This document shows positions 4,195 to 63,404 of a stretch of 64,000 nucleotides of DNA, one piece after another (the first letter of the stretch is position 1; each line of letters begins with the position of its first letter). Source of the stretch: Siphonodentalium dalli (taxonomy: Eukaryota > Mollusca > Scaphopoda > Gadilida > Siphonodentaliidae); NCBI GenBank assembly GCA_032622095.1, contig CP136067.1:42141549-42205548 (forward strand), in the 5' to 3' direction. Under the pieces are notes generated by a model. The model did not search any database. It worked only from the letters and a program-made list of their open reading frames with translations, and had not been told where the DNA came from. Made by a program: the position numbers and the translations under genes.

Positions 4195-4596
4195 TTAACC
4201 CTTTACCCAACAAACCGGCCAAAACCGGCCAAATAAAGCTTCAACAGCCTAAAATATCTTGGGTCTGTCTCAATAAAACCATACAAATATGGATATCATT
4301 GGAACCGGCTCCTTGACCACATTGTGATAGTTACAGTTATGCCCTGTGCCAATGCATTCTCTTATATATGCGAGTCGACCATAGGTTGCCTCGCATATAT
4401 AAGAGAATGCATTGGCCTAAAAAAAATCTTTTTTTTAACACTTTTTACCATTTTTTCTTACATTCTTTAACAATTTTATAATTTTTAATGTGTTAAGCCA
4501 ATGCATTCTCTTATATATGCGAGGCGACCTATGGTCGACTCGCATATATAAGAGAATGCATTGGCACAGGGCCCTTCTGTTGGGGTAAAGGGTTAA
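4195..4596 (+). mobile_element. TTAA-target MITE, family A (piggyBac-like ends), copy 1
   Basis: The ends are TTAACCCTTTACCCAACA and its inverse, with the TTAA duplicated. After the left end come CCGGCCAAAACCGGCC and ~140 bp of unique arm. Then follow two 69-bp hairpins (4348-4416 and 4497-4565) in inverted order around an AT-rich spacer. Each hairpin pairs 32 of 33 positions around a 3-base loop. TTAA plus CCC/GGG ends are characteristic of piggyBac; no transposase is present. Confidence 0.85.
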
Positions 4597-4685
4597 ATTA
4601 CATTACTTGTGAATTTTTCTTATTTTGATTCTAAGATTAAAAATAAAATTATTAAAATCATATGGTTCCAAACTACCTTTGGACT

Positions 4686-5045
4686 TTAAAGGGGTACTGT
4701 ACACTAAATCCGACCATTTATGGGGCAACACTCTTTTATACTCAACATAATATATGCAACAAATGAATGAATTTGAGCATGGATTAGTGCAAAATACACT
4801 CATTTACTTTATTAGCAATGCAAACAACATGGTAACTATAATGAAAATGAATTTATGACTCCAGTCATAGTCATGAATTCAATTTCATTATAATTACCAT
4901 GTTGTTTTACATCGTTCATAAAGTAAATGAGTGTATTTTGCCCTCATAAAAGGCTCAAATTCATTCATTTGCTGCATATATTCTGTTGAGTATAAAAGGG
5001 GATGGTCCCATAAATGGCCTGATTTAGTGTACAGTACACCTTTAA
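4686..5045. mobile_element. TTAA-target foldback MITE, family G
   Basis: It is bounded by TTAA, with ends AGGGGTACTGTACACTAAAT and inverse. The arms run ~160 bp on each side with indels, so most of the 360 bp is palindromic. Only one copy is seen in this window. Confidence 0.75.
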
Positions 5046-5071
5046 GATCTGGACTGACAAAACTATGACAA

Positions 5072-5131
5072 AGCTTCTTATGTTACATGTCTTATGTATT
5101 ATTCATACAATGCTCTGAAAAAGGTTTTTAA
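5072..5131 (+). repeat. 60-bp direct repeat, left copy
   Basis: Identical over 60 bp to 5360-5419. It ends exactly at the TTAA target of the truncated family A element that follows. Confidence 0.95.
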
Positions 5132-5359
5132 CCCTTTACCCAACAGAACGGCCCTGTGCCAATGCATTCTCTTATATATGCGAGTCGACCATAGGTCGCC
5201 TCGCATATATAAGAGAATGCATTGGCTTAACACATTAAAAATTATAAAATTGTTAAAGAATTTTTTTAGGCCAATGCATTCTCTTATATATGCGAGGCGA
5301 CCTATGGTCGACTCGCATATATAAGAGAATGCATTGGCACAGGGCATAACTGTAACTGT
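5128..5359 (-). mobile_element. Family A TTAA MITE, truncated copy 2
   Basis: It has the short end and both hairpins (5158-5226 and 5272-5339 approximately) but stops within the long arm. The CCGGCC region, the far TIR and its TTAA are missing; instead the left flank sequence restarts at 5360. Confidence 0.85.
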
Positions 5360-5419
5360 AGCTTCTTATGTTACATGTCTTATGTATTATTCATACAATG
5401 CTCTGAAAAAGGTTTTTAA
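5360..5419 (+). repeat. 60-bp direct repeat, right copy
   Basis: Perfect copy of 5072-5131, ending in the uninterrupted TTAA that precedes GAGAAAACTACTG. Confidence 0.95.
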
Positions 5420-5504
5420 GAGAAAACTACTGACATATACAGTATTTTTAACCATTATTTATCACTAATTGTTTCATTAGTGTTTCCAGGTTTCCACGTA
5501 TTTT

Positions 5505-5791
5505 TTAACCCTTCCATGAGGTTCATGACTGGTGCAGCATTAAAGATCCTGTGCCAGTGCATTCTCTTATATATGCCTGTCTCCCAAAGGGAGCCTGCCA
5601 TATGTCAGAGAATGCACTGGCACAGGATCTTTCTTTCAATTTATAGGTAAATATGGTTAGGCCAATGTTTTATCTTTTACACGCAAGGCTCCCTATGGGA
5701 GACTGGCATATATAAGCGAATTCATTGGCACCAGCTGTCGGCACAGGATTTTTCGCAAAATTTGAGGAAGCTCCAGTCATGGAAGGGTTAG
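5505..5791. mobile_element. TTAA-target MITE, family B
   Basis: The ends are TTAACCCTTCCATGA and TCATGGAAGGGTTAG. It carries two hairpins related to, but distinct from, those of family A (around 5552-5622 and 5663-5730). They share the GCATTCTCTTATATATGC stem segment but have a GGGAGCC/GGCTCCC tip. The relatives in the 5.1-kb units are more degraded. Confidence 0.75.
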
Positions 5792-5973
5792 GTGGAAATT
5801 GAACACAATCATTGTTCGTCTCATCGTCTTTCACTAATTCTAGTTAATGTTGAAAAGTATGTTGTCAAATGTGATGTATGGAGGTGACATAGTCTGTGTG
5901 TAATCTCGGTCACAAACCTGAAAGATAAGAAAAATCAATAAAAATAATGAAGAAGCCACATGTCCCAATTACA

Positions 5974-6225
5974 TACAGTAATGCCCTAAATAATCGACTC
6001 CTTAACCACAGCAGAATTATGGGTAACTTTTCAGGATTTAGTCGGAAATATGGCTTTTTGCCATTCATCAGAAAGCTCTCAGTGAGAGCTTTTCGATGAA
6101 TGGCAGAAAGCTCTCAGTGAGAGCTATTCGATGAATGGCAACAAGCCATATTTCCGACTAAATCCTGAAAAGTTACCCATAATTCTACTGTGGTTAAGGA
6201 GTCGATTATTTAGGTAATTACTGTT
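5974..6225. mobile_element. Tc1/mariner-like palindromic MITE, copy 4
   Basis: Same family as 142-362. The centre is enlarged by an internal duplication of the GGCAGAAAGCTCTCAGTGAG segment. The right TA has become TT. Confidence 0.8.
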
Positions 6226-6481
6226 GAAAGAATATTTATACCATTTGTATTTTGACAACGGGATGTTCTAAGCCAGTCCGACCTTCATTAACAGCAGGCT
6301 ATGTCACCGAATCAAACCCTGTGATATCAGATTATTTTATTTATACAAATTGTAAATATTTGTCAATTTATGAAATTTTATTTTTATGTCTGATTATTTA
6401 TTTATCCATCACCATCCACAGCAAAGTAATATAAATGTGTAGTAAATATACATGTACATGCAGTGGTACATAGAGAATATC

Positions 6482-6630
6482 TACGAGTTTTTGTTGAATA
6501 CCCGAATTATCTCATGAGTGGGTGCAAGGAAGTACAGAATTTCCACGAGCGGCTCCAAGCCGCGAGTGGAAATTCTGTACTTCCTTGCACCCACGAATGA
6601 GATAATCCGGGTATTCAACCAAAACCCGTA
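6482..6630. mobile_element. Near-perfect 149-bp foldback
   Basis: The arms of ~65 bp start TACGAGTTTTTGTTGAATAC and end with the inverse, around a GCGGCTCCAAGCCGC tip. The outer TA suggests a short TA-target MITE. No coding capacity. Confidence 0.7.
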
Positions 6631-7257
6631 GGTTTTCTTTTTATTATATGCGCTATAAACCGCACCAAAACTGCTAATTTTGTCCTAAAGTTCACTTCAA
6701 ATTGTTAGAAAGCTTCGACATTTGCATTTTGTTTACATTCCATCAATTGATTTGCTCACCACCGAATGACAAATATCGAGCATATCCGCCATAAGAAATA
6801 GTCCCCATTGTTTTATTCTGAAACGATGCGAGAAAATTAATGTATACATAATTTAGTGATAAGAATATATTAAAACAAATGAGTTAACATTATAACAATT
6901 AAATAACAGTTTATGAACCGTGAAAATCAATAATTAAAACAATAGTCCGGCTGTTATTGATACGCTTTGAAACTTAATGTGATTCGCCGCTATAAACCGG
7001 AAGTAATCTCCGAAAAAGTAATACTATTGTGTTATCCATCGAGTCGGTCAGTGTTATCCATCGAGTCGGTCAGTGTTATCCATCGAGTCGGTCCAGGCGA
7101 TGGATATAACGCTCTACGCCACGGCAATTTCCCACTATTTAATGGGGAAGCATATAATAAATATATTTTATTTTTTTTCTCCTCTGAATATCAACCAAAC
7201 AGGATTTAACCGACCGTAACTGGATACTCACTTATGGGCAATTACTCAATCCCAGGA
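6631..7257. other. Interval with a short tandem repeat, no gene seen
   Basis: AT-rich. The only structure I find is three copies of a 22-bp unit (GTGTTATCCATCGAGTCGGT…) at 7029-7093. The open frame running through it has no recognisable features. Confidence 0.6.
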
Positions 7258-7731
7258 TTAATAGAAATCCTTCTGCTCTTTTATTATCGTTTCATCTGTC
7301 TGTCGTCTGCTTATATTACCTGAGCACCCCCTCCAAATGAATAGTAGACCATTCCAATGTATAGTTTTATAACTGGGTGGGAGAATCCATTCAGTATAGA
7401 AAGGGTTAAACCAATATATTGCACTCATTGATCTAAATATTTATACAATTGAATGATTAATAGAATCCATAGGTGCTACATTGGCCTTTTCTAACATGGA
7501 GCATATTATCTGAAATTCCCCTCAATAGAAAAATATAGCGTTCCAAAATATACATTTACAACTGGGTGCAGAATTCCACTCAGGCTAGACGTGTTAATGA
7601 CTTTATATACTAAATGGATTCTCCCACTCAGTTATAATAGTTTACATTGGAATGGTCTATTATTCATTTGGAAGGGTGTTCAGGAAAAGTTAGCAGACAA
7701 CAGACACTTATTTTAGTATTGAAAGGGTTAA
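7258..7731. mobile_element. TTAA-bounded diverged foldback, family F
   Basis: Two diverged arms of ~200 bp face each other. The left includes CTCCAAATGAATAGTAGACC and the right its inverse, and the right end reads GAAAGGGTTAA. Half elements of the same family occur near 45014 and 58358 (TTAACCCTTTWTATACTRAA). The old copy is degraded at its left edge. Confidence 0.55.
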
Positions 7732-8077
7732 ACTTCATAGATGCACTTGATGTCTCACTAATTGACAGCAAGTTAGCCGTTTGATAGATTTATTATCCGC
7801 TGATAAATTTTTATACAAATTTTAATGACTTCATCTGACTGCTGTTTTCTATTGATCGATTTTTTATATGCCAATATTTAAGGTAATTTGTTCCTCAAAA
7901 CGAAATATATGGATCTTTAATTGATGGTGTGTCTAGTTACACTCCCACCAATTAGCAGAGCATCGCAAACAACTACACTTGGAAATTAACACTGTTTTCA
8001 CAACTAACTGTTGAAAATTATAGGTCCTCAAGACGTTCACGATGTGAATAGAAAGTTATTGAACTTTGCGGATAAAT
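7732..8077. other. No feature recognised
   Basis: AT-rich sequence with many stops in all frames. I see nothing supportable. Confidence 0.5.
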
Positions 8078-8287
8078 TACAGTAATGCCCAAAATAATCG
8101 ACTCCTTAACCATAACAGAATTATTTTTTAGGATTTAGTCGGAAATATGGCTTGTTGCCATTCATCGGAAAGCTCTCAGTGAGAGCTTTCCGATGAATGG
8201 CAACAAGCCATATTTCCGACTAAATCCTGAAAAATTACCCATAATTCTGCTGTGGTTAAGGAGTCGATTATTTAGGGCATTACTGTA
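8078..8287. mobile_element. Tc1/mariner-like palindromic MITE, copy 5
   Basis: Same family, TA at both edges, near-perfect foldback. A deletion removes the GGGTAAC segment from the left arm. Confidence 0.8.
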
Positions 8288-8360
8288 ACTAATAACAAAA
8301 TGTGCGAATGATACCGTATCGGCATATATCCCTAAAAAGATATCTGCTTCTCAAGGTGTC

Positions 8361-8378
8361 GGGGGGGGGGGGGGGGGG
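8361..8378 (+). repeat. G18 homopolymer
   Basis: Eighteen consecutive G. A C tract of the same length occurs at 16323-16340. Confidence 0.95.
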
Positions 8379-8829
8379 TACAAATCCAAGCCATTTTGCC
8401 CTCCAGTGCTGGCGATGAGGGTTCAAATTCACATGTTTCCTTCGTGGACTTTGTAATTTGAAATCGTTATTAGGTGGGTTTGCCAGTTACTCGCGGGTGG
8501 TTTATCAATGAATGAAACATTTGGTAAGGAGGTTCGCCATCATGCAGCATGACTGCTTTCAAAAGATTCCACATGTTTGTTCCATTCTGGAGTTATCATT
8601 TGTTTACTTTAAAATTGGGTTCCGTCCTGCCCATGTATTTATTTGGCACCGTGGGGGTATGCCAGCACTCGATACAACTTCTTGTTTTTCATCACATTAG
8701 AGCCATATCTCATCTCTCCAGCACTAACTCTGTTCTTCATTGAATCACAGCTTTATTCTCATCCGTTCATCACTAACTTTATTTTTAATTGTATTTCAGC
8801 CAAGTCTGCAAAGAGTGTGTCTGTCATTT

Positions 8830-9194
8830 GCAGAATGAGGTCCCCAGAGGGTGAATTTAATGATGCAAGGCAGGCTAGCATCACCAAATTCACCCTCTGG
8901 GAACCTCATCTGCTTAGTCCTCAACTGCTATATATGGGAGACCTAGGATCCATTGAATTTCCCCAGTTGAAGTTGGTGGTGTTCGACCGTTAGTCACCTC
9001 GATTATGCATTTTATCTTCTGCAAATTAGGGGATACTGAAACTTCCCAGAATGGAAAAAGTAACTAAAAACAATGTTAATTTGAGACTATAGATACTTCC
9101 CAGAAGACGATGCCTAAAAGCAGAATGAGGTCCCCAGAGGGTGAATTTGGTGATGCCAGCCCACTAAATTCACCCTTTGGGGACCTCATTTTGC
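8830..9194. mobile_element. Paired-hairpin repeat with GAGGTCCCCAGAGGGTGAAT arms
   Basis: One hairpin lies at 8830-8914 and a second at 9120-9194, each with arms GCAGAATGAGGTCCCCAGAG and inverse. They are separated by ~205 bp. The spacer is also conserved at 48024-48241, so the repeating unit is hairpin-spacer-hairpin rather than a single palindrome. Ends and target duplication are not determined. Confidence 0.65.
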
Positions 9195-9469
9195 AAATTA
9201 CAGATAAACTGTTTGCAGGCTTGATTTCAGCTTTATTCCCATCTGTCCATTACATACTTCTCAATGTTAAATGTCAGTATTCCATTGACAACATTCCATT
9301 ATTATGATACATACTCAATGTGATATCTGTATATCTGTGATATTTTCACAATTAAATTGGTTGTTTTGTCTGTTAACTTGAGTATTGTTTATGATTCCCG
9401 TTAACCCTTTATTATACTAAATACTCATTGACTTAAAGGCCCACTTAGTTTTCGAGCCCCCAGATCACA

Positions 9470-9686
9470 TACAGTAATGCCCTAAGTAATCGACTCCTTA
9501 AACACAGCTGAATTATGGGTAACTTTTCAGGATTTAGTCGGAAATATGGCTTGTTGCCATTCATCTGAAAGCTCTCAGGGAGAGCTTTCCAATGAATGGC
9601 AACAAGCCATATTTCCGACTAAATCCTGAAAAGTTACCCATAATTCTGCTGTGTTTAAGGAGTCAATTACTTAGGGAATTACTGTA
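9470..9686. mobile_element. Tc1/mariner-like palindromic MITE, copy 6
   Basis: Same family, TA at both edges, arms of ~100 bp. It is the last copy in the window. Confidence 0.8.
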
Positions 9687-10143
9687 TATAAAATATATGC
9701 CACATTATGCCACATGGCGCTGAGAATATGTGATTTGTATATATTTTTCGATTAAATTTGAAATAGTTTCGCTTGTGTCAGTTAATTTTTCAAATTAGCA
9801 GTCGCGTTAAAATTGATTTTGCCGGACAGACGCGTGTTATTCCATTGCCGATTCCTGAATTCGATGAATAAAAATAGCGCTGCTATTGCTTGCGATCCGG
9901 TTTTTGTGATCGGCGTTATATTTGTATGACCTCAACCTGGGATATATCGTGCTCCTAGAATTGTAGTTTTCAAAGCAGAACCACATATTGATTGGATTAT
10001 ATCTTGATCTATATAGCTATGTTTGCGAATATGTGTCTATTCTATAGCCAATAACGGGGACCGTCTAGATGGCTCCAAAGGGAGGTAACTTTTTACGAAG
10101 AAGATAATGGTTGAGCCCGGTTTTACCATAACTAAAATAAAGA
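9687..10143. other. No feature recognised
   Basis: Unique-looking AT-rich sequence with no ORF, RNA or repeat signature that I can support. Confidence 0.5.
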
Positions 10144-10243
10144 ACAATACTATAGGGGTATTCTTATTGGTCAAGCCAATTTCATATCCCCCCTGGAAGA
10201 TATGAAATTTGCTGGACCAATAAGAATACCCCTAAAATATTGT
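10144..10243. mobile_element. 100-bp foldback
   Basis: The arms ACAATACTATAGGGGTATTC and inverse pair over ~45 bp around a CCCCCTGGAAG centre. Probable MITE; no target duplication identified. Confidence 0.6.
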
Positions 10244-10314
10244 TTGTATATATCAGGTATACATGTATGTATAGACACTAGTTACAGCACACCCCACATT
10301 GTTAAATATATAAC

Positions 10315-10660
10315 ACTAGCCGATGTGCCCGACTTCGTCCGGGCTATTTAGGGATTTATTTGTGATCTCCTCCGCCTGGACAAATTTTGTTAGATCAGTC
10401 CAGAAACATGCCTATATGAGCGAGGACAAGGACATGGTCGCACGTGAAATTGGACCCGCCCATATTGTTCCTGGGATCAAAGTACATGTAGGCCTACATA
10501 CCAAAATTGAGTCGGATCGGTCGAGGTCCAGAAACATGCCTATGCGAGGGTATATGAGCGAGGTCAAGGACATGGTCGCACGTGAAATTGGACCCGCCCA
10601 TGTTCCCCGTATCAAAGTAGACGTGCATACCAAATTTGAGTTGGATAGGTCGAGTAGTTT
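10315..10660 (+). repeat. Head-type repeat with two ~125-bp tandem units
   Basis: The head ACTAGCCGATGTGCCCGACT includes the GC-rich GCCCGACTTCGTCCGGGC motif. Two tandem units follow (about 10393-10517 and 10518-10648) sharing CCAGAAACATGCCTAT and GCACGTGAAATTGGACCCGC. Heads of the same type occur at 21570, 49336, 56440 and 59022 with different tandem bodies. The open frame across it is a repeat artefact. Confidence 0.6.
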
Positions 10661-10892
10661 TCAGCACTTGATTTTAGAGTTATCCATCTTACACCCGCAA
10701 TTTGTCTGTTTTGATCACGTGGTTCGGCTAACTATTGGGACAGATCTCCGAAAATTAATAGATTTCAAAAATCGATATCTAATCATTCTGAACTTTGATG
10801 GGTGGGTTCCTCGACTCGATTTAAATATTTTTTACCCCCAAAGCCAAAGAAATAGTAATATAGGACCCTCTGATCGGATTAAGTACCTTTAA
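10661..10892 (-). mobile_element. TTAA-target MITE family C, one half
   Basis: It contains the family C inner segments (TTAGAGTTATCCATCTTAC, GATGGGTGGGTTCCTCGACT) and the end CGGATTAAGTACCTTTAA. The opposite end is replaced by the head-type repeat, so the element is truncated. Confidence 0.65.
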
Positions 10893-11385
10893 AGGCACGG
10901 GCGGCGTTCGTTGCCATCAACAAAAGGAATATTAAAATATATATAGTTTTGTTCATATGCCAAACATAATCAGCGCGTAAATTGTATATTTCGTCAAACA
11001 TACAATGGTGTACGTAAACAAGAGCCTGCTCGTGTTACAGAGGTTGTGCTTCTGTTTACATAGTACAGCGCAATTCTATTGGTTAATCACACAAAAATGA
11101 TATAAATGCTCTTTATTATTTCCATATCAGGAAAACAGTAACAAATAACGCTCTTTATGTTTACCATATCCGGATCTAAACAAAAGCCAGATAACGTAAC
11201 GTTTTTTGCTTTTGTTTACATAACAAAGGGGGAAAATTGACAATAACATACTGTGTATGCCATATTTTTTATTGGTATAAGAACAAAGTCTGTTTATATT
11301 TTACTATTCTTTCTGTTATGGCGGTTTTTGACGGAGGTGAATATTTTAATAGCATGCCCACCGCCAACGACGCCCGTATCTTTAA
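10889..11385. mobile_element. TTAA-target element, family D
   Basis: The ends TTAAAGGCACGGGCGGCGTT and the inverse of TTAAAGATACGGGCGTCGTT bound 497 bp. Its left TTAA is the same TTAA that closes the family C fragment. Related end sequence appears near 45859 (AAAGGCACGGGCGCCGC). No ORF. Confidence 0.65.
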
Positions 11386-12047
11386 TTCACGCCGGTTGAT
11401 GTAAGATAAAATGTGAACTTGGTTAAATTATTTAGTTAATTCAGAATGCACAGGTGTATATAAGATTGTGAATAGAATCTTGAACAATTCGTCGTGATGT
11501 CAAACAACCATTCCCATGTCGTGTTCCGACACATCGTTAATTCATAGTATGATGGCGACACACAAATACGTTGGTAGGAAAAACAGCGAAAAGAATGTCT
11601 TATCAATTGTGATGTTCCCTCCTGTGATCCCCATTCCCTACAAGAGTTGTCCCACTTCGAAAAACAAAAATAGACTACACTATTGGGTCTCTTATATCGC
11701 GGAAATATCTATCTGTCAGTTCGCGATTTTTCTCCCAGACCACTGGACCAATTTTGGGATGGTGCATGACTCGGCCAAATCGAAAAAGTGCAGCGGCCAA
11801 ATCGAAAAAGAGCTCTAGTTCTCGAGATACCCCTACCCTCGGTAGAACAATTTGACTCGGAAAACAACTGAAACAACCTGAAATATATATTGTTCAGGAA
11901 AATAATAGTGAAAAATAACGGAATTGGTGGTGGCTATTGTCAAATCGACGATGAACGATACCCACCAGTTTCTTTTTCCATAAATTAACGATTTTGGTAA
12001 AGCGAGTCTTGCCGCCTATGTCATAAATTATTTGCCAACAAAATTAG
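11386..12047. other. No gene supported
   Basis: The 100-codon open frame at 11516-11818 (+) has no recognisable domain and I regard it as chance. Nothing else found. Confidence 0.45.
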
Positions 12048-12990
12048 ATCATCACGGACTTCAATACAAGTGTACAAACCGAACATTGTTGTCCCGATTT
12101 TAGGGCTCCAGGACCATCCACACGCATAGCCCCCGAACATGGTAAGTGTGTCATTGTGTTCACCACATCAGTGGTAATTACAATTTGAACCCATGTAGCG
12201 CTGATTCTTGAGAACGAGGTCAGCACTAGTCCCGACATGCATAGTCGTTTTGATTTCATTAAATTGCCATTTTCATCTAATTTGGAGACGCCAGGATACT
12301 CTACAGAGATGTCCCTCCACATTAGTTGAACGATATTATTAGAAAGTGTGATCGTTGGCAATGGGAAACCACCCCACGCAGTTGAAATTTGGCAAAAGTA
12401 GGTCATCACGGACTTCAATACTTCTATGTACAAACCGAACTTTATCGCTATTATGTCACAATGTTAGGGCTCGCGAGGACACTCCACAAGTACGTATGAC
12501 CCATCAACATGGTAAGTATGTCATTGTGATCAGCACACCAGTGGCAATTACAATTTGAGTCATTTGACCCCTCGCAGCCGGAATTCTTGAGCACGAGGTC
12601 AGCACGAGTCCCGACATATTCGTCGTGATTTCATATAAATTGTCATTTTTACCTAATTCCGAGGTGCCAGAACACTGTATACGGAGATGTCTCTCCACAT
12701 TAGTTGAAGGGTATTACTAGGCATTGTGACCGCTGGTAATGGAAAACCACCCCACGCAGTTGAAATTTGGCAATAGTAGGTCATCACGGACTTCAATACT
12801 TCTATGTACAAACCGAACACTATCGCTATTATGTCCCGATTTTAAGGCTCCGGGACACTCCACATAACCTACGAATATGGTACGGTAAGTATGTCATTGT
12901 GGTCACCACATCAGTCGTAATTACAATGTGACCCCAAGCAGTCGGAATTCTTAAGCAAGATGTCGGCATGAGTCCGACATATTCGTCGTG
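12048..12990 (-). repeat. ~370-bp tandem repeat, 2.6 diverged copies
   Basis: Copies start at 12048, 12401 and 12779 (GGTCATCACGGACTTCAATA). Copy 2 is 378 bp and copy 3 is cut off near 12990. On the minus strand copies 1 and 2 keep corresponding open frames (12044-12433 and 12504-12698) with matching peptide segments such as NMSGLVLTS / CMSGLVLTS and QIVITT / QIVIAT. They could be relics of duplicated exons, or simply a satellite with few stops. Confidence 0.7.
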
Positions 12991-13111
12991 ATTTCATAAA
13001 CAAAATCGTACATCTCTATATATAAGTTTTCAAAATACACGTATAGACAATCTATTGATCGTGATCAAATTTCTGGTATCCAAATGAATGTCTATGATAA
13101 TCATGAATGCC

Positions 13112-20288: not shown

Positions 20289-20688
20289 TTAACCCTTTAC
20301 CCAACAGAACGGCCCTGTGCCAATGCATTCTCTTATATATGCGAGTCGACCATAGGTCGCCTCGCATATATAAGAGAATGCATTGGCTTAACACATTAAA
20401 AATTATAAAATTGTTAAAGAATGTAAGAAAAAATGGTAATAAGTGTTAAAAAAAGATTTATTTTAGGCCAATGCATTCTCTTATATATGCGAGGCGACCT
20501 ATGGTCGACTCGCATATATAAGAGAATGCATTGGCACGGGGCATAACTATAACCATCACAATGTGGTCAATGAGCCGGTTCCAATGATATCCATATTTGT
20601 ATGGTTTTATTGAGACAGACCCAAGATATTTTAGGCTGTTGAAGCTTTATTTGGCCGGTTTTGGCCGGTTTGTTGGGTAAAGGGTTAA
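20289..20688 (-). mobile_element. Family A TTAA MITE, copy in unit 1
   Basis: Complete: both TTAA ends, both 69-bp hairpins, and the CCGGTTTTGGCCGG segment near the right end. The open frames crossing it (…YMRVDHRSPRIYKRMHWL…) are readings of the hairpins and recur in every copy. Confidence 0.85.
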
Positions 20689-20737
20689 AGTGTATTCGTC
20701 AAGCATTGACTGTTGTGGTCTCCAGGACCCCATTATT

Positions 20738-20979
20738 TTAGCCCATTCACGTCGAGAGCTGCGCTGGTGCAGCATTAAGATCATGTTCCAGTGCATTCTC
20801 TTATATCGCATATATAAGATAATGCACTGGCTTATACAAGGTCATGGTAAATATGGTTAGGCCTATGTATTCTCTTATACCCGCGCGAGGCTCCTTATGG
20901 GAGACTGGTATACATAAGGAAAGCATTGGCACAGGGTTTCTCGCAAAATTTCAGGAATCTCCAGTCATGGAAAGGTTAA
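20738..20979. mobile_element. Family B-related TTAA element, unit 1
   Basis: A shortened hairpin (CCAGTGCATTCTCTTATATC…) is followed by a second degraded one and the right end CCAGTCATGGAAAGGTTAA. The left TIR has diverged (GCCCATTCACGTCGAG), so the left limit is approximate. Confidence 0.55.
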
Positions 20980-27569: not shown

Positions 27570-27969
27570 TTAACCCTTTACCCAACAGAACGGCCCTGTG
27601 CCAATGCATTCTCTTATATATGCGAGTCGACCATAGGTCGCCTCGCATATATAAGAGAATGCATTGGCTTAACACATTAAAAATTATAAAATTGTTAAAG
27701 AATGTAAGAAAAAATGGTAATAAGTGTTAAAAAAAGATTTATTTTAGGCCAATGCATTCTCTTATATATGCGAGGCGACCTATGGTCGACTCGCATATAT
27801 AAGAGAATGCATTGGCACGGGGCATAACTATAACCATCACAATGTGGTCAATGAGCCGGTTCCAATGATATCCATATTTGTATGGTTTTATTGAGACAGA
27901 CCCAAGATATTTTAGGCTGTTGAAGCTTTATTTGGCCGGTTTTGGCCGGTTTGTTGGGTAAAGGGTTAA
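27570..27969 (-). mobile_element. Family A TTAA MITE, copy in unit 2
   Basis: Matches the unit 1 copy with no difference that I noticed; complete ends and hairpins. Confidence 0.85.
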
Positions 27970-28018
27970 AGTGTATTCGTCAAGCATTGACTGTTGTGGT
28001 CTCCAGGACCCCATTATT

Positions 28019-28260
28019 TTAGCCCATTCACGTCGAGAGCTGCGCTGGTGCAGCATTAAGATCATGTTCCAGTGCATTCTCTTATATCGCATATATAAGA
28101 TAATGCACTGGCTTATACAAGGTCATGGTAAATATGGTTAGGCCTATGTATTCTCTTATACCCGCGCGAGGCTCCTTATGGGAGACTGGTATACATAAGG
28201 AAAGCATTGGCACAGGGTTTCTCGCAAAATTTCAGGAATCTCCAGTCATGGAAAGGTTAA
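28019..28260. mobile_element. Family B-related TTAA element, unit 2
   Basis: Same as 20738-20979, with right end GAAAGGTTAA. Left limit approximate. Confidence 0.55.
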
Positions 28261-32424: not shown

Positions 32425-32820
32425 CCAAAAATACCTTACGAGAAACGCATATGTAAAAAATGTGAAGCAAATGAAATTGAAACGGAAGAACACTTTATAA
32501 TGATATGTGAAAAACATAACCATTTGCGGAAGAGATTTTTCACTGAAATAGGAGTTCACCAACCAATTTTCGTAAACTTTGATGAAATAGAAAAGTTCAT
32601 ATTCCTCATGAAGGCTGAACACCCGAGCATATGCAATCTGATCTGTAACATGGTTCGGCAGTTTTCCGCAAATAAATGAGAATATAGTGTTGAGTTACAA
32701 ATACATGTTATATATATATTTTATATGAAATTGTCTTGACTTGTGTTTAAATTATCTGTATTATGACAACTGCCCCGCGTGGGTGTATTATGTCAATAAA
32801 AATGTTATGTTATGTTATGT
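32425..32820 (+). mobile_element. LINE 3' end with CCHC-type C-terminus
   Basis: An 84-codon frame (32425-32679) contains C-x2-C-x9-H-x4-C (CKKCEANEIETEEHFIMIC) followed by a C-terminal block KFIFLMKAEHPSICNLICNM and a stop. This pattern is usual at the end of non-LTR retrotransposon ORF2 proteins. A ~140-bp 3' UTR ends in TTATG repeats. Comparison with units 1-2 (GGATCATGTCAGG uninterrupted) shows it is a 5'-truncated insertion. A diverged relative lies at 46371-47007. Confidence 0.75.
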
Positions 32821-33019: not shown

Positions 33020-33419
33020 TTAACCCTTTACCCAACATAACGGCCCTGTGCCAATGCATTCTCTTATATATGCGAGTCGACCATAGGTCGCCTCGCATAT
33101 ATAAGAGAATGCATTGGCTTAACACGTTAAAAATTATAAAATTGTTAAAGAATGTAAGAAAAAATGGTAATAAGTGTTTAAAAAAGATTTTTTTTAGGCC
33201 AATGCATTCTCTTATATATGCGAGGCGACCTATGGTCGACTCGCATATATAAGAGAATGCATTGGCACAGGGCATAACTATAACCATCACAATGTGGTCA
33301 ATGAGCCGGTTCCAATGATATCCATATTTGTATGGTTTTATTGAGACAGACCCAAGATATTTTAGGCTGTTGAAGCTTTATTTGGCCGGTTTTGGCCGGT
33401 TTGTTGGGTAAATGGTTAA
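33020..33419 (-). mobile_element. Family A TTAA MITE, copy in unit 3
   Basis: Complete copy. One TIR base is changed at the right end (GGGTAAATGGTTAA). Confidence 0.85.
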
Positions 33420-33469
33420 AGTGTATTCGTCAAGCATTGACTGTTGTGGTCTCCAGGACCCCAGTATTT

Positions 33470-33710
33470 TAGCCCATTCACGTCGAGAGCTGCGCTGGTG
33501 CAGCATTAAGATCATGTTCCAGTGCATTCTCTTATATCGCATATATAAGATAATGCACTGGCTTACAAGGTCATGGTAAATATTGTTAGGCCTATGTATT
33601 CTCTTATATACCCGCGCGAGGCTCCTTATGGGAGACTGGTGTAAATAAGGAAAGCATTGGCACAGGGTTTCTCGCAAAATTTCAGGAAGCTCCAGTCATG
33701 GAAAGGTTAA
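33470..33710. mobile_element. Family B-related TTAA element, unit 3
   Basis: Counterpart of 20738-20979 with several private substitutions. Right end GAAAGGTTAA; left limit approximate. Confidence 0.55.
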
Positions 33711-34611: not shown

Positions 34612-35001
34612 TTAACCCTTTACCCAACAGAACGGCCCTGTGCCAATGCATTCTCTTATATATGCGAGTCGACCATAGGTCGCCTCGCATATATAAGAGA
34701 ATGCATTGGCTTAACACATTAAAAATTATAAAATTGTTAAAGAATGTAAGAAAAAGTGTTAAAAAAAGATTTTTTTTAGGCCAATGCATTCTCTTATACA
34801 TGCGAGGCGACCTATGGTCGACTCGCATATATAAGAGAATGCATTGGCACAGGGCATAACTGTAACCATCACAATGTGGTCAAGGAGCCGGTTCCAATGA
34901 TATCCATATTTGTATGGTTCTATTGAGACAGACCGAAGATATTTTAGGCTGTTGAAGCTTTATTTGGCCGGTTTTGGCCGTTTTGTTGGGTAAAGGGTTA
35001 A
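34612..35001 (-). mobile_element. Family A TTAA MITE
   Basis: Complete; the spacer between hairpins is 11 bp shorter than in the units. The 13-bp left flank CATGTGGCTTTAA (34603-34615) recurs at 35010-35022, eight bases past the right TTAA. Confidence 0.85.
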
Positions 35002-37045: not shown

Positions 37046-37493
37046 ATTTTATCACATGATCACATTTCAGCAAAATAAAAATGATATCGAAACGGCTGGG
37101 ATTAAACACAAAACAATAGTGATTTCCTTATCACAACCGAAGAGGAAGGAAAGACACCTTCAAGAAAAAATATAGTTCAATTTTAAATGTGTCCTTTCGT
37201 GTTGAAAATAATTGTTTAACCACCCTTGTTTATATCACTGTCAGCACTAAATAACCCAACACAAATGGAATATCATAATTATATTATAATTATATAGCAG
37301 AACTGAAAAATTTCCGGCATTGATATTGATATGATTACGCTAAGGTCTTACGTCACTGTGTGTGCTGATAATACACGTGTGTCTTACTCATTACTAAACA
37401 TATGAGGTCTGGTTTAGGGGCTAATTGTGTGATAAATAACCATAATTATCTAAGTCTATTCGAATGCGAAACGACCGACAACATTAACCCTTT

Positions 37494-37855
37494 ACACAAC
37501 AAACCGGCCAAAACCGGCCAAATAAAGCTTCAACAGCCTAAAATATCTTCGGTCTGTCTCAATAGAACCATACAAATATGGATATCATTGGAACCGGCTC
37601 CTTGACCACATTGTGATAGTTACAGTTATGCCCTGTGCCAATGGTCGCCATAGGTCGCCTCGCATATATAAGAGAATGCATTGGCCTAAAAAAAAACTAT
37701 ACTGCTTAGGTATCAACTTACATTCTTTAACAATTTTATAATTTTTAGTGTGTTAAGCCAATGCATTCTCTAATATATGCGAGGCGACCTATGGTCGACT
37801 TGCATATATAAGAGAATGCATTGGCACAGGGCCCTTCTGTTGGGTAAAGGGTTAA
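37494..37855 (+). mobile_element. Family A TTAA MITE with one damaged hairpin
   Basis: TTAACCCTTTACACAACA and inverse ends. The first hairpin has lost most of its left arm (GCCAATGGTCGCCATAGG) while the second (about 37757-37825) is whole. Confidence 0.8.
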
Positions 37856-53785: not shown

Positions 53786-53871
53786 ACTGAGTACCATCAC
53801 TAACTGATATACACATCTCATCTAAAGCGCAGTGAAATCAAACAAGAGCGCTCTCCCATTTACACAACAAA

Positions 53872-56653: not shown

Positions 56654-56865
56654 TATATTGCGGCTGGGGTGTCGGAGGTGTCGGATATGCTCGCGGGTGT
56701 TTGTGGAGCGGACAATTCATCACTCGAGCAAAAAAATTATGAAGCAATTTTATATCGCTGAAATTACCACGAATTAGCCTTGGCTTACCTCTTATGTCTT
56801 ACTGTGTATGTTATAATTATATTTATTTGCCTACTTGAGAAATAAAATATTGTTTACACTAAATC

Positions 56866-57660
56866 GCTGTCCAAAAAAATACCCGGGTACCCCATTATAC
56901 CCGGCCACGGGTGTATAGGGTTACCCAGGTATTTTTTGGACAGTGATTTACCCCAAGGGTGCATGGTTAGGGACGAAATAATCCCAAAAGTGGCCACTAT
57001 ATCATAGATCTCTGACAATCGTGAATTTACGAATATTTTAAGTTACCGTTTTGTCGCCACACCCCAGTTATACACCAAATTTGTGGCCGGGTATAATTAA
57101 ATAACCGGGTATTTTTTACCGTAATTTGTCCCTACGGTTGCTATGGACGAATTCACCCCAAAAGTGTCCTCCAAATATCAAAGATTCCCACAATCGTGAA
57201 TTGATTTTATGGTCCGTTTGCTCGCCAGACTCCGGTTACGCCAAATTTGTGGCCGGTTATAATGACATACCCGGGAATTTTTCCCTAGGTTGGCTAAGGA
57301 CGAATTCACCCCAAAAGTTGTCACTAATAGCGTAGATGACGGTCGTGTAATTGCCATTGCATCAATTTATGGTCCGTGTTTGGTGGCCATACTCCAGTTA
57401 CGCCAAATTTGTGGCCGGTATAATGACGTCCCCGGTATTTTTTGGACAGTGATTTGCCACTATAGGGTGGCTATATATGCAAGAATTCACACCAAAAGTT
57501 GCCATTCATCTCTCACAATCGGGAATTAACCAACATCTTATAGGGTCCGTTTTGGTCGCCAGACTCCAGTTAATTTGTGACCGGGCATAATGAAATACCC
57601 GGGTATTGTTTGCACAGTGATTTGTCCATAGGGTGCATGGCTATGGACAAATTTGAATGA
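56866..57660 (+). repeat. ACCCGGGTAT satellite, ~150-185-bp units
   Basis: Four to five units, each with GGACGAATTCACCCCAAAAG, CAATCGTGAATT, GTCCGTTTTGGTCGCCAGAC and AATTTGTGGCCGGGTATAAT then TACCCGGGTATTTTTTGGAC. The first unit is palindromic at 56868-56955. The same family flanks the 3.5-kb element in the opposite orientation. Confidence 0.7.
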
Positions 57661-57778
57661 TTTGAATCGGAGGCCGAATAACGAACATGGAACCGGGAAC
57701 TAAATTCATGGTGCTTCTGAGTAACCAGGTCAGCAGAGCAGATAAAGCTTACTTTGCGATACAGGATTGCATGCATGT

Positions 57779-58157
57779 CTAGAGGTACGCAATCCGATTC
57801 GATGGTCCCTGTATCATCAGATTCCAACAACAACAACAACAACATTTCTTCAAAAGATGATTTAATTATCAGAAACGAATAATCACCACAAAATAATGCT
57901 AACCACTGTCAACTCTAGTATAAAATTTTCCAAAACGTGTTATAAATAAACATTTTGTTCAAAGCAATGTTGGTATCGAGAGTATGTCGGTCGGCCGCCA
58001 AATATTCTATGTGGTGAAAAATTACAGATTTAAAAAATCGATATATGTAACACTGAGCGCCGATTGGTGGGTTCAATGACTCGAATCCAATAGCGTTTTC
58101 CCCCGAAGCCAAATAAATAGTAATTTAGGAGCGTTTATTCGGATTATGTATCTTTAA
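57779..58157 (+). mobile_element. Family C TTAA MITE, diverged copy
   Basis: It starts CTAGAGGTACGCAATCCGAT (target mutated), contains (CAA)n and CAAAACGTGTTAT, and ends CGGATTATGTATCTTTAA. Confidence 0.65.
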
Positions 58158-58357
58158 AAAGCCCAAAACGTTTAGAAAACAAAATTCCATTAGGACAGCA
58201 TTTGTCGAAATGGAACTGGGTTCGACGATCGCGCCGTGCTGTGTTGCTGATTGCCAAAGAAAATGACCGGCGTGAATACTATCGTGTTAATTACACGCAA
58301 TCGTCCAATTGCGAGTTCTATTCCCGAGGTCTTTCGCCGCTCTTATAAGAGTTATAA

Positions 58358-58465
58358 TTAACCCTTTATTTACTGAATTCATTGGTCCATTATTCATCGG
58401 GAGGAATGTTCAAGAAATATAAGCAGACGATAGGATATTGTAAGTGCAAAAGGAATAATCATATA
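58358..58465 (+). mobile_element. Family F TTAA element fragment
   Basis: TTAACCCTTTATTTACTGAA followed by GGTCCATTATTCATCGGGAG, matching one arm of 7258-7731. Confidence 0.45.
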
Positions 58466-58489
58466 TCACACGAAACCCTTTTTATATCA

Positions 58490-58865
58490 TTGACCCTTTC
58501 AGTGCCAGGGGTTGAATTATTTTTTGGGTATACTTAAGCATACTATAGCGAATTTAAAAACAAACTGGATAAGACCTGGCATGCTATAACTCAAAACTAT
58601 CACCAAGTATTCATAGTAATAATTTTATGCCCATGAAAAACGTAAGATTCCCTGGCACTAAACCTACAAAATAAGTCTGTTAAAGAATATAAGAAAAAAA
58701 TATTAAAATTGTAAAAAATAATAACAATTGATGAAAAATTGTTAGGCCAATGCATTCTCTTATACATGCGAGGCCACCTATGGTCGACTCGCATATATAA
58801 GAGAATGCATTGGCACAGGGTATATGGGTTGATACAAAAATCGGACCTGGCACTGAAAGGGTTAA
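58490..58865. mobile_element. TTAA-target MITE family E carrying the family A hairpin
   Basis: The ends TTGACCCTTTCAGTGCCAGG and CCTGGCACTGAAAGGGTTAA differ from family A. Yet the element contains one 69-bp hairpin (58746-58814) nearly identical to those of family A, plus adjoining GCACAGGG. 376 bp. Confidence 0.75.
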
Positions 58866-59021
58866 AAAGCCATTACATGCATATTTCTTATCTCTCACTA
58901 TAGTTTTTATAGAGAACTATTCTTGCTTTTTTGCATCTTCTAGCTATTCTCCCAAGAATTTTTTTACTTTTTTCTTAAACTTTTCTCGAAACAAGAATAC
59001 ATAAACAGTAAATATATATAT

Positions 59022-59755
59022 ACTAGAAGGTAACCCGACTTCGTCCGGGCTTTGACCTTGAATTGTCCATTGTGAAGGTCAAGGTCAAGTGGGGTCACGA
59101 TTTGACCAGTCCAAAACACGTACTGCCCGGACAAAAGTACACGACAAACGTGCCCGTCGAAATCCATCCAGTTTTACCCGATTTGACCTTGAATTGATCA
59201 TTTTGAAGGTCAAGGTCAGGTCGGGGTAACGATTTGACCCGTCCAAAACACTCAGTGGACAAAAGTAATCGTCCAGGGGTCGAAATCCCATCAAAATTGG
59301 AGATTTGACCTTGAATTGACCTGATTTCAAGGTCAAGATCACATCGCACGGGCAAATGAATATGCTTACGAGACTCCCCATACGAAAGTATCCCCACATA
59401 CCAAGTTTGATCGAAATCCCGTGATATTCAGCGTTTGACCTTGAAATGACCCGATTTCAAGGTCAAGGTCATGTCGCACGGGCAAATGAATATGCTTATG
59501 AGACTCCCCATACGAAGTTACCCCCACATACCAAGTTTCATCGAAATCCCGTAATATTCGGGCGTTTGACCTTGGAATGACCCGATTTCAAGGTCAAGGT
59601 CACGTTACACGGACAAATTAATAGGCCCATGCCACCCCCCGGCCGAAAATACCCCCACATACCAAGTTTCATCGAAATCGGGTCGGCCGTTTTCGAGTTC
59701 ATCGCGAACACACACACAGACACACAGACAGATCTTCCAAAATATATAATAGATG
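59022..59755 (+). repeat. Head-body-tail repeat with AGGTCA-rich units
   Basis: The head ACTAGAAGGTAACCCGACTT is followed by five ~120-130-bp units. Each starts TTTGACCTTGAATTG and carries TCAAGGTCA about 25 bp later; later units also share ACATACCAAGTTTCATCGAA. The tail is (ACACAGAC)n and AATATATAATAGATG. The tail style recalls 3' ends of LINE-derived repeats in invertebrates, but no RT is present. Open frames are repeat readings. Confidence 0.7.
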
Positions 59756-60162
59756 CTTCTCCGATATGTGTCGGCATGCTGGCACGTTGTCAGTTAAGTC
59801 CAGCACTGGCATGCCCGTACTGGTCGGTGTCGGTTGCTATTATCATGTCGCCTGTCACTCGAATTGTTTTCTAATTATGCATATTTGACAAAATATTGGG
59901 CACTAAAACTAGAGCAAAATCGGAATTCAATGAATTTAGTCATAACCCCTTTATTTCTGCTGCCAGCATTTGCCGCGCCGGGCCGACACCGGGCCAGCGT
60001 GCAAAATGTCATGGCGCCGGCGCTGGCAGCCGGTACAGGCCGGCTAGGCAACCGGCATGTGTCCGGTACAGACCACATACCGGCATGTTTACTTGCAACT
60101 GTCATTCATTTATTTGGACTGCAATGGCAATTAGCTGAACATTTCCAAAAATAAGAGGTGCA
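59756..60162. other. No gene supported
   Basis: GC-richer patch at 59965-60085 with CCGGC-repeats (GCCGGTACAGGCCGGC). The overlapping frames on both strands here reflect base composition; no domain seen. Confidence 0.4.
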
Positions 60163-60800
60163 AGTTCGAAATTTCCGAAAAGTTGGAACAGTTGAGGTAC
60201 CAGTAGATCATGCCATGAATCTCTACTCTGGCTATAACGCCCGTAGATATCATATTCCACCAGTACAAAACCTTGGAACTTTTTGAAGTTTTGACAGGGA
60301 ACCTTATAAAGTCGAAAAAATAACGCGGAAAATATATTTCTTATATTAGTTATTACCTGTTCCTTTATAATGGAGTTCACTCTATGTGAAGGTCCCAACT
60401 CGAAATTTCACGATTTAAGTGAATGTGTGAGCGATTTTGCTTTGAGTAGCTTACTTTATTATAAAAAGTTTTCCTGGGTAATTAACTCGATGTGTATTGC
60501 AATATCGGCTGACAAAAGTCAGAAAAAACATGCAGTTTTGAGTTGGGACATTCACTTACCGTGATGTACATTATTATGGAAAAGATAACAACTAAGAAAT
60601 ATATTCCCCGCGTTATGTTTTCGACATTATAAGGTTCCCTGTCAAAACTTCAAAACGTTCCAAGGTTTTGTACTGGTGGAATATGATCTTTACGGGCGTT
60701 AGCCAGAGTAGAGATTCATGGCATGATCTAAGGTACCAGATGAAAAATTCCAACTCAAACGGGTGGGGTGCAAATGGAATTTTTCGGACTTCGAAATTTC
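60163..60800. mobile_element. Large imperfect inverted repeat (~190-bp arms)
   Basis: 60185-60350 and 60580-60745 are inverse copies (GATCATGCCATGAATCTCTA, CCACCAGTACAAAACCTTGG, AACCTTATAAAGTCGAAAA). The outer edges share CGAAATTTCCG. A second inverted pair (TCCCAACTCGAAATTTCAC / TTTTGAGTTGGGACATTCAC) sits in the loop. Probably a foldback transposon; ends not fixed. Confidence 0.65.
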
Positions 60801-62334
60801 CGTCATGGTGGCTGCAGTTGGAAATTCCAATCAATATGGAAGTTAACATCTAACCCGCAATAGCCGCGCCCGTATCGATGGGTGCCCTCCATGCACTCCC
60901 ATTATAACACTTGCCACCATCGTCCCTGGACTCTTAACTCATTAATTATAATAGTCTTCTCTTGGAATGTTACTTCCGTGTTGTTCTCCGTGTAATAAAA
61001 AGTCGATCAGTGATTAGTGTTGTTCCTATCCCGCTATCGCGCGTGACTCAAAAAATCACGGTGTGATTTTCTGCGCCATATGTGACAATAAATAAACAGC
61101 GAGCGCAATAATGGAACAGCTGGGTGTTGCCATATGCCATTTATCACCATCCTGCAATTAATTAGACTAAGAAACTGAGCTATTCTATATATGTATAATT
61201 AGATCACCTTTTTGCTGGAACAGACGAGATCCGATTGGTTTTAAAGATATGTGTTGTGCGCACTGTGTAGGAACGGTTACATCGGAAGTCGTTCTATCGC
61301 CGATTTGTGATGGTTCTTGATTGATTTCTGACGGTTCCTTATCATCCAAATTATACATTTTCGCGAGTTTTTGACAGTTAAAACGCTATTTTTTAGCCAT
61401 CTAGGTGATAATTCTATTAGTTTTTCCATTCCACTCATAATCTATGGTCCAAAATAACTAACATAATGAAAATCCTATTGTGCGAGTAATAACAATGATA
61501 AAAAACTGCGAATTGTAATATCTCGATCGGTTCTCTCCGGATCGAGTCGGTTCTCTCCCAATTTAATCGGTTCTGTCCGGGAAATTCGATGACTACTATT
61601 TGGAAGGATACGTGGAAATAACCAAGTGAACACAACGAAATATGAATTATGTTGACTTTACACCACTTATGATCAATTTTGTTGAGTTACACTGTCTTCT
61701 TATATATAATTATATGTCAACAGTGTAGTAACAGAATCGTTCACTTTATTGTGACGCAAAGCATGCAATTTGACATGAATGGTCAATGTGAACTGAATTT
61801 GGATCGGGGGAGGGTTATGGTGTCTTCTGGGCACATGTTTTTATTTTATTTTGCCCACAGTTGTCATTGCACATTGAGGCAGTATGAACGATAAAGTGAG
61901 TCCGAGTCGATTTAGCCGTGTACCGGTATATAGTTTGTAATTAAGTTAGCTTTAACTCTATTTTTGGCTTACTTGTGCAGTTTGGGTTAGTTATATGAAA
62001 GCTTCATATACGAATAGGCAGCTAAGCATATACGAGCGTATTAACATTTCACTCGATGACATTTTGGATGGCTCGAGCGAAATGAAAACTATATTTAATA
62101 AAAATTAAATAAATACACATAAAACATGGTCTATTCCCAATATGTTGGTGCACAACTCCATGACAAAACATCACAAATTAATGTAAAAAGATTATGTGCT
62201 TATTGCTTGCTTGTTTTATTTGTTCCGTCGTTCCTTGTTTAGGTATTATATAGTTTTTTGTTATTCAATATCATTTGATATTTTAATTAAATTTATTTCA
62301 TTATTTATTCCTATGGGATCAAAAAGGTTGGAAA
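60801..62334. other. AT-rich interval, no gene supported
   Basis: Only a three-unit degenerate repeat (ATCGGTTCTCTCCGG type, 61523-61580) is visible. Frames up to 71 codons look random. Confidence 0.5.
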
Positions 62335-62512
62335 CTAAAAATGGTAATCAGATGTAATCGAAAAGTAATCAGTTACATTTTACTAAATAAAAGTAATTGT
62401 AATCGAAATCAATTACATTTGAAAAAAATGTAATCAATAATCGTAATCATGTAAATCAAAAGTAATTGTAATTGTAATCGATTACATTGGAATGTAATCG
62501 CCTCAACCCTGG
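62335..62512 (-). mobile_element. hAT-like terminus with GTAATCGATTAC repeats
   Basis: AT-rich GTAATYGATTAC-type subterminal repeats end in the complement of CAGGGTTGAGGCGATTACAT, resembling hAT ends (CAGGGTTGG…). The partner end was not found in the window. Confidence 0.45.
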
Positions 62513-63015
62513 CCAGAATTGAACACATATCCCACCTGGAACTTTCAACCACAGACCTTCATTTATCAAGTAAAGTCATTTGTTGGTTTGCGCTCCAAAA
62601 TACGCGTAATAATAGTCGCTTTTTAAGTTTTCCCGATATAGAAATAGCTCGATAAACACTTGAAATACCATTCTACGAGCAGTATAATAATGTCACAGAA
62701 AGACACATTGGAGTCATGAAAAATACAACTTTGAACCCAATGTTTGTGTTCTAAAACAAATACAGCCATTTGCATGACATGGAACAGAAAAGAGCATTCC
62801 GTGTGTAATCTATTCTTGATACGGTAGAAATAAAGAGCCTTTGGTTCACTTCTGTGCGAAAAATTGTAAACAGCTGGAAAAGGGCTCTGACCACAGTATG
62901 TATTTCTCAGAGCATATGAGGCCGAGCGTTAATACCAAGGGGTCAGTTGCACCCAGTGTACTGGGTGGAATAAAGGTCAAACCAATCTATGGCATATGAC
63001 CATCTCATGGATGGC
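62513..63015. other. No gene supported
   Basis: AT-rich; no repeat or coding signature recognised. Confidence 0.45.
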
Positions 63016-63404
63016 TTAACCCTTTACCCAACAAACCGGCCAAAACCGGCCAAATAAAGCTTCAACAGCCTAAAATATCTTCGGTCTGTCTCAATAGAAC
63101 CATATAAATATGGATATCATTGGAACCGGCTCCTTGACCACATTGTGATAGTTACAGTTAGCCCTGTGCCAATGCATTCTCTTATATATGCGAGTCGACC
63201 ATAGGTCGCCTCGCATATATAAGAGAATGCATTGGCCTAAAAAAAATCTTTTTTTACCATTTTTTCTTACATTCTTTAACAATTTTATAATTTTTAATGT
63301 GTTAAGCCAATGCATTCTCTTATATATGCGAGGCGACCTATGGTCGACTCGCATATATAAGAGAATGCATTGGCACAGGGCCATTCTGTTGGGTAAAGGG
63401 TTAA
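63016..63404 (+). mobile_element. Family A TTAA MITE, last copy
   Basis: Complete TTAACCCTTTACCCAACA … TGTTGGGTAAAGGGTTAA, with hairpins at about 63167-63236 and 63306-63374. Same orientation as the copies at 4195 and 37494. Confidence 0.85.

Follow-up and report, generated by a model that had tools for sequence, protein, structure and literature searches.

The 64,000 nucleotides of the scaphopod mollusc Siphonodentalium dalli considered here (assembly GCA_032622095.1, contig CP136067.1, positions 42,141,549 to 42,205,548; hereafter the window, which is part of contig C7 in a 2.2-Gb genome of nine contigs) hold short mobile elements in which nearly the same hairpin lies between unrelated terminal repeats. 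Why does one internal structure recur between different ends, and is it the hairpin itself that passes from family to family? The same hairpin is present in at least four families, namely A, E and B/F, which have TTAA targets, and T, which has an apparent TA target. A first-pass annotation of the window had proposed that the hairpin is a retained module exchanged among elements. This proposal gains from the presence of the hairpin in families with unrelated ends, including outside the TTAA group, but the exchanged unit is larger than the hairpin: it consists of the hairpin together with an AT-rich, minisatellite-like spacer, usually as an inverted hairpin pair, and the hairpin is the part of it that is kept unchanged. 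The occurrence of the same hairpin, in many copies, in families with unrelated ends suggests that the families have taken this part from one another and that it may be kept for helping them to spread. The families themselves are mosaic, non-autonomous DNA transposons, or miniature inverted-repeat transposable elements (MITEs). The explanation favoured in what follows, tentatively and at a little under an even chance, is that of a modular MITE system in which the hairpin is kept by selection on the source elements, most likely for amplification, as judged from sequence comparison.

The common unit runs from an outer hairpin edge (CCCTGTG) through the hairpin and an inner edge into the AT-rich spacer, and the outer edge, CCCTGTGCC, serves as a border common to the families seen. 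The hairpin unit reads GGCCAATGCATTCTCTTATATATGCGAG-GCGACC-TAT-GGTCGA-CTCGCATATATAAGAGAATGCATTGGCACAGGG, with a loop of 3 bases. Of its 33 stem positions, 32 are standard pairs, in agreement with the pairing already described in the first-pass annotation, and the single exception is a constant G·A mismatch (T.C on the opposite strand). Two A units fold at -55.7 and -55.5 kcal/mol and the E unit of the window at -45.7, against about -16 for shuffles, and the fold reaches z scores of about -11 to -13. Such stability, together with the covariation between subfamilies described below, could speak for an RNA function, in which the 33-position hairpin would be transcribed and processed like a microRNA precursor or as a source of small interfering RNAs; the length of the stem is also near that of animal primary microRNAs. 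The 3-base loop argues against such processing, as does the outcome of Rfam searches of seven loci, in which none of 74 matches (up to E 5) reached the gathering score. A function of this kind is accordingly very improbable, and a known RNA family was rejected on the same matches, the likeness to microRNA precursors being general to long hairpins.

The families differ in their ends and in the arrangement of the shared parts. A, B and E show TTAA target duplications, with exact TTAA+CCC... ends that number from thousands to tens of thousands, on both strands, and have the CC(C/T)T terminal motif in their inverted ends. Family T, which is absent from the window, has the ends TGTGACCCGCC (full form TGTGACCCGCCATATCAAATCCAGTCG), which are not known to match a named family, and typically consists of two inverted hairpins about 350 bp apart; TA stands on both sides in 12 of 19 two-ended loci, or in 9 of 14 once inverted or partial duplicates are set aside. 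In one locus (L034, C1:12491630-12492220), a T element lies inside the TATATA of a B-type hairpin, the broken arm of which, by eye, has the consensus length if TA is counted once, and hairpins may themselves be targets for TA elements. Since the hairpin is common to apparent TTAA and TA target types, it probably crosses transposon superfamilies. Two hairpins in inverted order are present in A, B, F and T, and a single one in E; the consensus lengths are 400 bp for A, 459 bp for T and 458 bp for E. Family F, known from two loci (L107 and L113), combines B-like ends with an A-type hairpin and looks intermediate on those two loci. Its spacer is a minisatellite with units like TTGTTAAAGAATGTAAGAAAAAATGATAAAA; to judge by appearance, the A, T and E spacers are fragments of this minisatellite. 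Comparable B units diverge by about 9-10% from their own consensus, against about 1.2-1.5% for A, T and E units, which indicates that B is older than A, T and E.

In the genome as a whole, exact hairpin outer edges amount to 155,382. Those followed by C, the base found in A, number 44,808 and 45,152 on the two strands, and those followed by another base 32,679 and 32,743. Exact ends of A occur 45,789 and 45,832 times on the two strands, those of T 8,840 and 8,883 times, those of B 4,719 and 4,729 times (some in tandem arrays) and those of E 4,149 and 4,114 times. Chance is excluded as a source of these counts because reversed-pattern controls gave 0 matches in each of the nine genome pattern searches. 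Among the 65,422 edges not followed by C, 18,634 have a T flank and 13,107 an E flank, while the other 33,681 are unassigned and include B/F, diverged flanks and further types such as those of the locus pairs L014/L110, L111/L112 and L117/L126. An exact edge follows at least 40 of 77 T ends, a lower bound because only exact matches count. Forty loci were picked by an edge not followed by C, the second twenty of them for having no exact known end nearby, and their flanks proved to be of E, B, F (the B relative), T and several unassigned kinds. A separate observation concerns a tandem block with a period of about 11.2 kb (C1:820008-920841), in which each listed unit contains an E-type edge and most contain an A end.

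A border so constant and so frequent could also mean that the hairpin core is a transposon itself, with its own ends CCCTGTG...CACAGGG, which became nested into other families. The common outer edge fits this idea, and TA flanks it in T, E, L014 and L117 on the sides seen. The edge occurs as a TTAA-type end, however, in only 176 and 161 matches against the 155,382 edges, and as an end of that type it was rejected; A, B and F have no TA at the edge, and no clean solo copy with a matching target duplication was established. A core that moves by its own ends is thus hardly credible, and the least probable of the explanations considered.

How the core can come to lie between new ends is seen in family E. 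The E element of the window (58490-58865, plus strand; ends CCCTTTCAGTGCCAGG; left target site mutated to TTGA) had been noted at first pass as carrying one hairpin nearly identical to that of A. The hairpin is there, but more than the hairpin is shared: the part that E has in common with A and T (58678-58820, plus strand) extends from the spacer near the TTAA through the hairpin (58745-58820) to GCACAGGG, and over these 143 aligned positions, spacer included, E and A are 82% alike. Among 34 E loci (a number that includes L021, L025 and L026, which have the same flanks), 22 match an expression requiring TTAA at the start of the shared spacer and 12 do not. Two of the 22 (L047 and L058) have a slightly degenerate E end just before the spacer TTAA, as a relic, and the other 20 show a shortened form; L059 has a related form, by eye, and in L119 an E end stands on a longer, uncut core that runs past the TTAA. 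The E right end stands beyond the hairpin. A relic E end at the spacer TTAA points to capture by nested insertion, and the simplest reading would be the following: a core already had an E end beside it, a further E element then entered at the TTAA of this core, and the outer E ends later moved the composite. The first-pass annotation had allowed for E being an A element with one recombined end, an origin that is rejected on two grounds: E-type ends stand on both sides, and the captured part starts in a T/F-like spacer at a TTAA or no more than two bases from one. The capture step is therefore visible for E, and we infer it for A and T.

Two loci (L067, C1:9264740-9265400, and L068, C1:6568570-6569300) hold a second module of about 84 bp (GGGAGCCCCATACAGG...GGGGCTCCATAAGGGTAG) in TTAA-bounded tandem arrays with B-type ends, and a diverged copy of it seems to form the middle of the T core; the observation also takes in the core of L014. 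The size and tandem habit of this module recall the coral MITEs discussed below.

If cores are passed on in this way, is the hairpin also treated differently from the sequence around it? The consensus hairpins of A (two), T (two) and E (one) are identical at 69 of 69 positions in all 10 comparisons, while the adjoining 60 bp of spacer consensus agree at between 31 of 54 and 49 of 56 aligned positions, with 8-24 gaps. The left and right spacers of T match at 45 of 53 positions while its hairpins match at 69 of 69; the E and T-left spacers are close (49/56). Variation among individual copies was counted in elements picked by their ends (23 of A, 8 of T and 17 of E), after removal of CpG and indel-adjacent columns and of 2 A and 6 T copies that were duplicates or had been found through the hairpin. 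Variants shared by at least two copies occupy 6 of 2,538 hairpin cells and 95 of 8,375 other cells (Fisher 4.5e-6; this and the other Fisher values overstate significance because shared variants are not independent, and the sign and size of the contrast matter more), and single-copy variants 21 of 2,538 hairpin cells and 151 of 8,375 elsewhere (Fisher 3.5e-4). When the hairpin is compared with the spacer alone, in a slightly larger set that holds three T copies found through the hairpin edge, shared variants number 6 in 2,853 cells against 22 in 3,117 (Fisher 0.007), and single-copy variants 27 against 51 (Fisher 0.022). Per cell, the hairpin thus has about a fifth of the shared variants found in the rest of the elements, and about a third of those in the spacer.

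Changes within the stem tell of pairing as well. In 54 hairpins (51 distinct), which are 54 of 56 references chosen as a capped subset of 198 full-length units, 95.3% of 1,632 cells pair, against 27-49% in slid versions. Both sides have changed in 8 of the 32 pairs, a number reached by 7 of 500 shuffles, and the covariation score is higher than in all 500. The paired changes set T-A and C-G in the loop stem of B against G-C and A-T in the A/T/E type, and the right-hand B hairpin shows G-C versus A-T at pair 6-66. The G·A mismatch is present in 52 of the 54 aligned units, across B, F, A, T and E types. The first-pass annotation had looked to compensatory stem changes as a sign of a retained hairpin, and these are found between the B and the A/T/E types, at three stem pairs, but not within young single copies. 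Pairing thus persists from one subfamily to the next and is not kept up in individual copies, the pattern that selection on the source elements, or a mutational process acting on them, would be expected to produce.

A mutational process of this kind could be homogenisation, in which the more than 150,000 near-identical hairpins would exchange sequence by ectopic gene conversion, or within one element by hairpin-templated repair, and come to look conserved without selection. Paired double changes are a known product of palindrome-templated mutation, and the lower frequency of single-copy variants in hairpins (21/2,538 against 151/8,375) is what ongoing conversion would give. The mismatch is difficult to reconcile with homogenisation, as palindrome correction would tend to erase such a mismatch and yet 52 of 54 units retain it, and so is the count of 0 double changes among 4,092 cells of young copies. 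Homogenisation is on these grounds improbable as the explanation.

Several results weigh against a hairpin kept by selection and shared across target types. In the young single copies, 85 single changes stand against the 0 double changes in those 4,092 cells (units not exactly 76 bp long were excluded, which removed 5 of 56 in A, 3 of 46 in T, 4 of 34 in E, 13 of 24 in B and 10 of 17 in B2, and some units of the T and E sets had been located through an exact hairpin edge), so decay after insertion looks neutral. As many as 38 of the 45 double-change cells come from three pairs and hence represent few events; the B type, with 8 doubles against about 3 expected, gives a weak signal, 2 of these doubles coming from one F-type unit and 2 from one tandem pair. 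The A spacer is also without shared variants (0 of 776 cells), so that in A the contrast rests on the part outside the core, and in E the hairpin and the spacer are close (4 of 612 against 7 of 713 shared variants). The expectation of the first-pass annotation that stems diverge more slowly than spacers consequently holds for the pooled copies and falls short in E, where the rates are 0.018 for the stem and 0.021 for the spacer; being of low complexity, the spacer is in any case a poor neutral yardstick. Seven of the 19 T loci do not plainly fit a TA target, all MITE loci studied lie in the first 26.4 Mb of one contig (C1), and a search of 26 transposase loci for the hairpin and for the ends of A, B, E and T brought up no autonomous partner.

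Part of this evidence would suit a passenger, that is, a core captured a few times, and recently, by families that were about to amplify, so that its identity would reflect little time and no effect of its own. The A, T and E copies are indeed young, at about 2-5% from consensus outside the hairpin; the E spacer differs little from the left spacer of T; changes in single copies go uncompensated; and the A spacer and the E hairpin and spacer behave as just described. A passenger would, on the other hand, have to be captured at least three times, as one and the same core, by very abundant families and apparently across target-site types. Nor would it be expected to show the roughly fivefold and threefold scarcity of shared variants relative to the rest of the element and to the spacer, respectively, identical T hairpins beside left and right spacers that agree at 45 of 53 positions, or, between the B and A/T/E types, stem changes that come in pairs together with a mismatch that hardly varies. 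A mere passenger is for these reasons rather doubtful, though by no means far-fetched.

Returning to the modular system with a kept hairpin, the core, as one or two inverted hairpins with an AT-rich spacer, would have arisen in an old TTAA family of the B/F type. Three or more younger families with different ends, among them A and E (TTAA) and T (apparent TA), would then have acquired it. Takeover would proceed by nested insertion, in which an element would land within a core or next to one, and outer ends of a single kind would afterwards move the whole. Source copies with the hairpin would amplify better, and the hairpin would be kept for that reason. Its most likely mode of action would be in cis, with structured DNA or a site for a host factor aiding mobilisation by whichever transposase is at work. 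A role in cis is the first choice because an internal sequence of the rice Stowaway element Ost35 raises transposition (PMC3660474) and because the same module lies beside different ends and need not be the site of one transposase. The sequences themselves show a common core in mosaic elements, a capture border at TTAA for E, a lower frequency of shared variants in the hairpin than around it and covariation from one subfamily to another; the direction of transfer, the benefit and the mechanism are what we infer, at the strength given above. A bolder version, in which the core is a transposase-independent, portable cis module that raises the spread of any flanking TTAA- or TA-type ends and moves by nested insertion, is rather unlikely; were it true, the success of successive families in this genome would be due to their having acquired the core.

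The transposase loci bear on where the source of movement might lie. Matches to PF13843 number at least 128 in the genome, and the 26 loci inspected comprise 6 (four of them copies of one family) and 20 from a second search. A script for inverted ends at TTAA returned one candidate pair on these loci (L145), and a looser cut added another (L003); neither is related to the families described here. Two piggyBac-type transposase loci that are 97% alike (L001, C6:111404378, and L134, C7:154937295) start with TTAACACGTTGAGTGCCGG, which resembles an E end but is not itself one; by this resemblance they are a possible relative of the E transposase source.

Within the window, a profile search found 25 hairpin units, of which 16 lie in A (eight elements), 1 in E and 8 in B (four elements). 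The first-pass annotation had counted nine A copies; copies with paired hairpins are real, but eight were listed and eight are found. On the minus strand these are 4195-4596, with both ends and hairpins at 4342-4417 and 4497-4571; 37484-37855, with a truncated left hairpin (37633-37686), a full hairpin (37757-37831) and one mismatch in the end, the start of which had been placed at 37494; and 63016-63404, with hairpins at 63162-63237 and 63306-63380. On the plus strand, the copy at 5128-5357 lacks its right end, so that this border is approximate, and has hairpins at 5152-5226 and 5269-5344, and the copy at 34612-35001 has hairpins at 34636-34710 and 34779-34854. The remaining three, also on the plus strand, are segmental copies of one another: 20289-20688 (hairpins 20313-20387 and 20466-20540), 27570-27969 (27594-27668 and 27747-27821) and 33020-33419 (33044-33118 and 33197-33272; right end read from the sequence). 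Each segmental copy (approximately 20289-20979, 27570-28260 and 33020-33710) contains one A and one B element with the same flanks, and because the flanks are identical the three A copies represent one segmental triplication, leaving six independent A insertions. Of family B, the first-pass annotation had noted a related hairpin pair, which is confirmed in the element at 5505-5791 (plus strand; CCCTTCCATGA ends; B-type hairpins at 5548-5621 and 5660-5731), and had passed over three further copies, all on the plus strand and belonging to the triplication: 20784-20979, with a hairpin remnant (20784-20831), a hairpin (20860-20936) and the B right end; its duplicate at 28065-28260, with hairpins within 28065-28217; and the third copy at 33515-33710, with hairpins within 33515-33667. 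The window also holds, at 3171-3957 on the minus strand, a tandem array with long open frames repeating ...CAISLVMGQSMRDFIGYGSEHARFHWLWF....

Some T-ended sequences contain a further component. In these the hairpin is split at the loop by an insert with a mobile Bcl-2 family gene (L039, C1:4495880-4497810; L040, C1:4549450-4551410; L130; L153-L157), which in L040 is an open frame matching PF00452 at E 1.7e-13. At least 153 matches to this gene occur across the genome; most of those listed are free of stops, and many stand head to head about 850 bp apart. Three such pairs were inspected, and each lies in surroundings that are wholly or partly a near-perfect palindrome, with T ends and hairpin arms inside it; in L154 this applies to one side alone. 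One palindrome of about 5.56 kb (C9:31906872-31912435, approximate) contains, besides T ends with split hairpin arms, a short glutamine-rich frame, whose C2H2-like match is weak (18.7 bits against a cut-off of 27). Capture of genes by elements with terminal inverted repeats (TIRs) is described for Pack-TIR elements in animals, in the account given in PMC8277862; the present case is alike in that a host-type gene lies between T ends, and differs, as far as that account goes, in that the gene stands between two hairpin halves in the T-ended loci and has so many genome matches.

Among known systems in the literature searched, the nearest precedent is that of the CMITEs of Acropora corals, and by analogy the present case is the same kind of phenomenon. 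In the description by Wang et al. (2010, PMC2872659), CMITEs are TTAA-flanked MITEs of about 100 bp, with an estimated copy number of 1,600 in A. millepora. Their CCCTTT-type ends vary from family to family, while an internal region of about 75 bp is better conserved than these ends; tandem arrays occur, and the authors consider that the internal region may help transposition. Different end families with a common, conserved internal region thus occur in both cases, a comparison made from the published description. The elements described here are longer, at about 400-460 bp, their edges number more than 150,000 and they show a visible capture border; moreover, CMITEs as described are all of TTAA type and the main text of that paper does not use the word hairpin, whereas here there are a covarying hairpin and an apparently TA-type family. 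With piggyBac-type MITEs in general, A, B, E and F share the TTAA target and the CCC-type ends, but their core is common to a family of another apparent target type and no autonomous partner was found in the 26 loci. Family T, with its inverted ends and apparent TA target in 12 of 19 loci, is like Stowaway or Tc1-mariner-type MITEs. The rice element Ost35 is a precedent for internal MITE sequence that raises transposition; as far as the account in PMC3660474 goes, it includes no hairpin common to several families.

It is still asked why some MITEs come to number in the tens of thousands when related ones remain rare. The presence of the same hairpin in several abundant families with different ends means that ends and internal module have been separated by evolution itself, and the case shows a possible origin of new MITE families, by takeover of a core through nested insertion. 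If the hairpin aids amplification, this would be directly testable with a marked element to which the hairpin is added or from which it is taken away.

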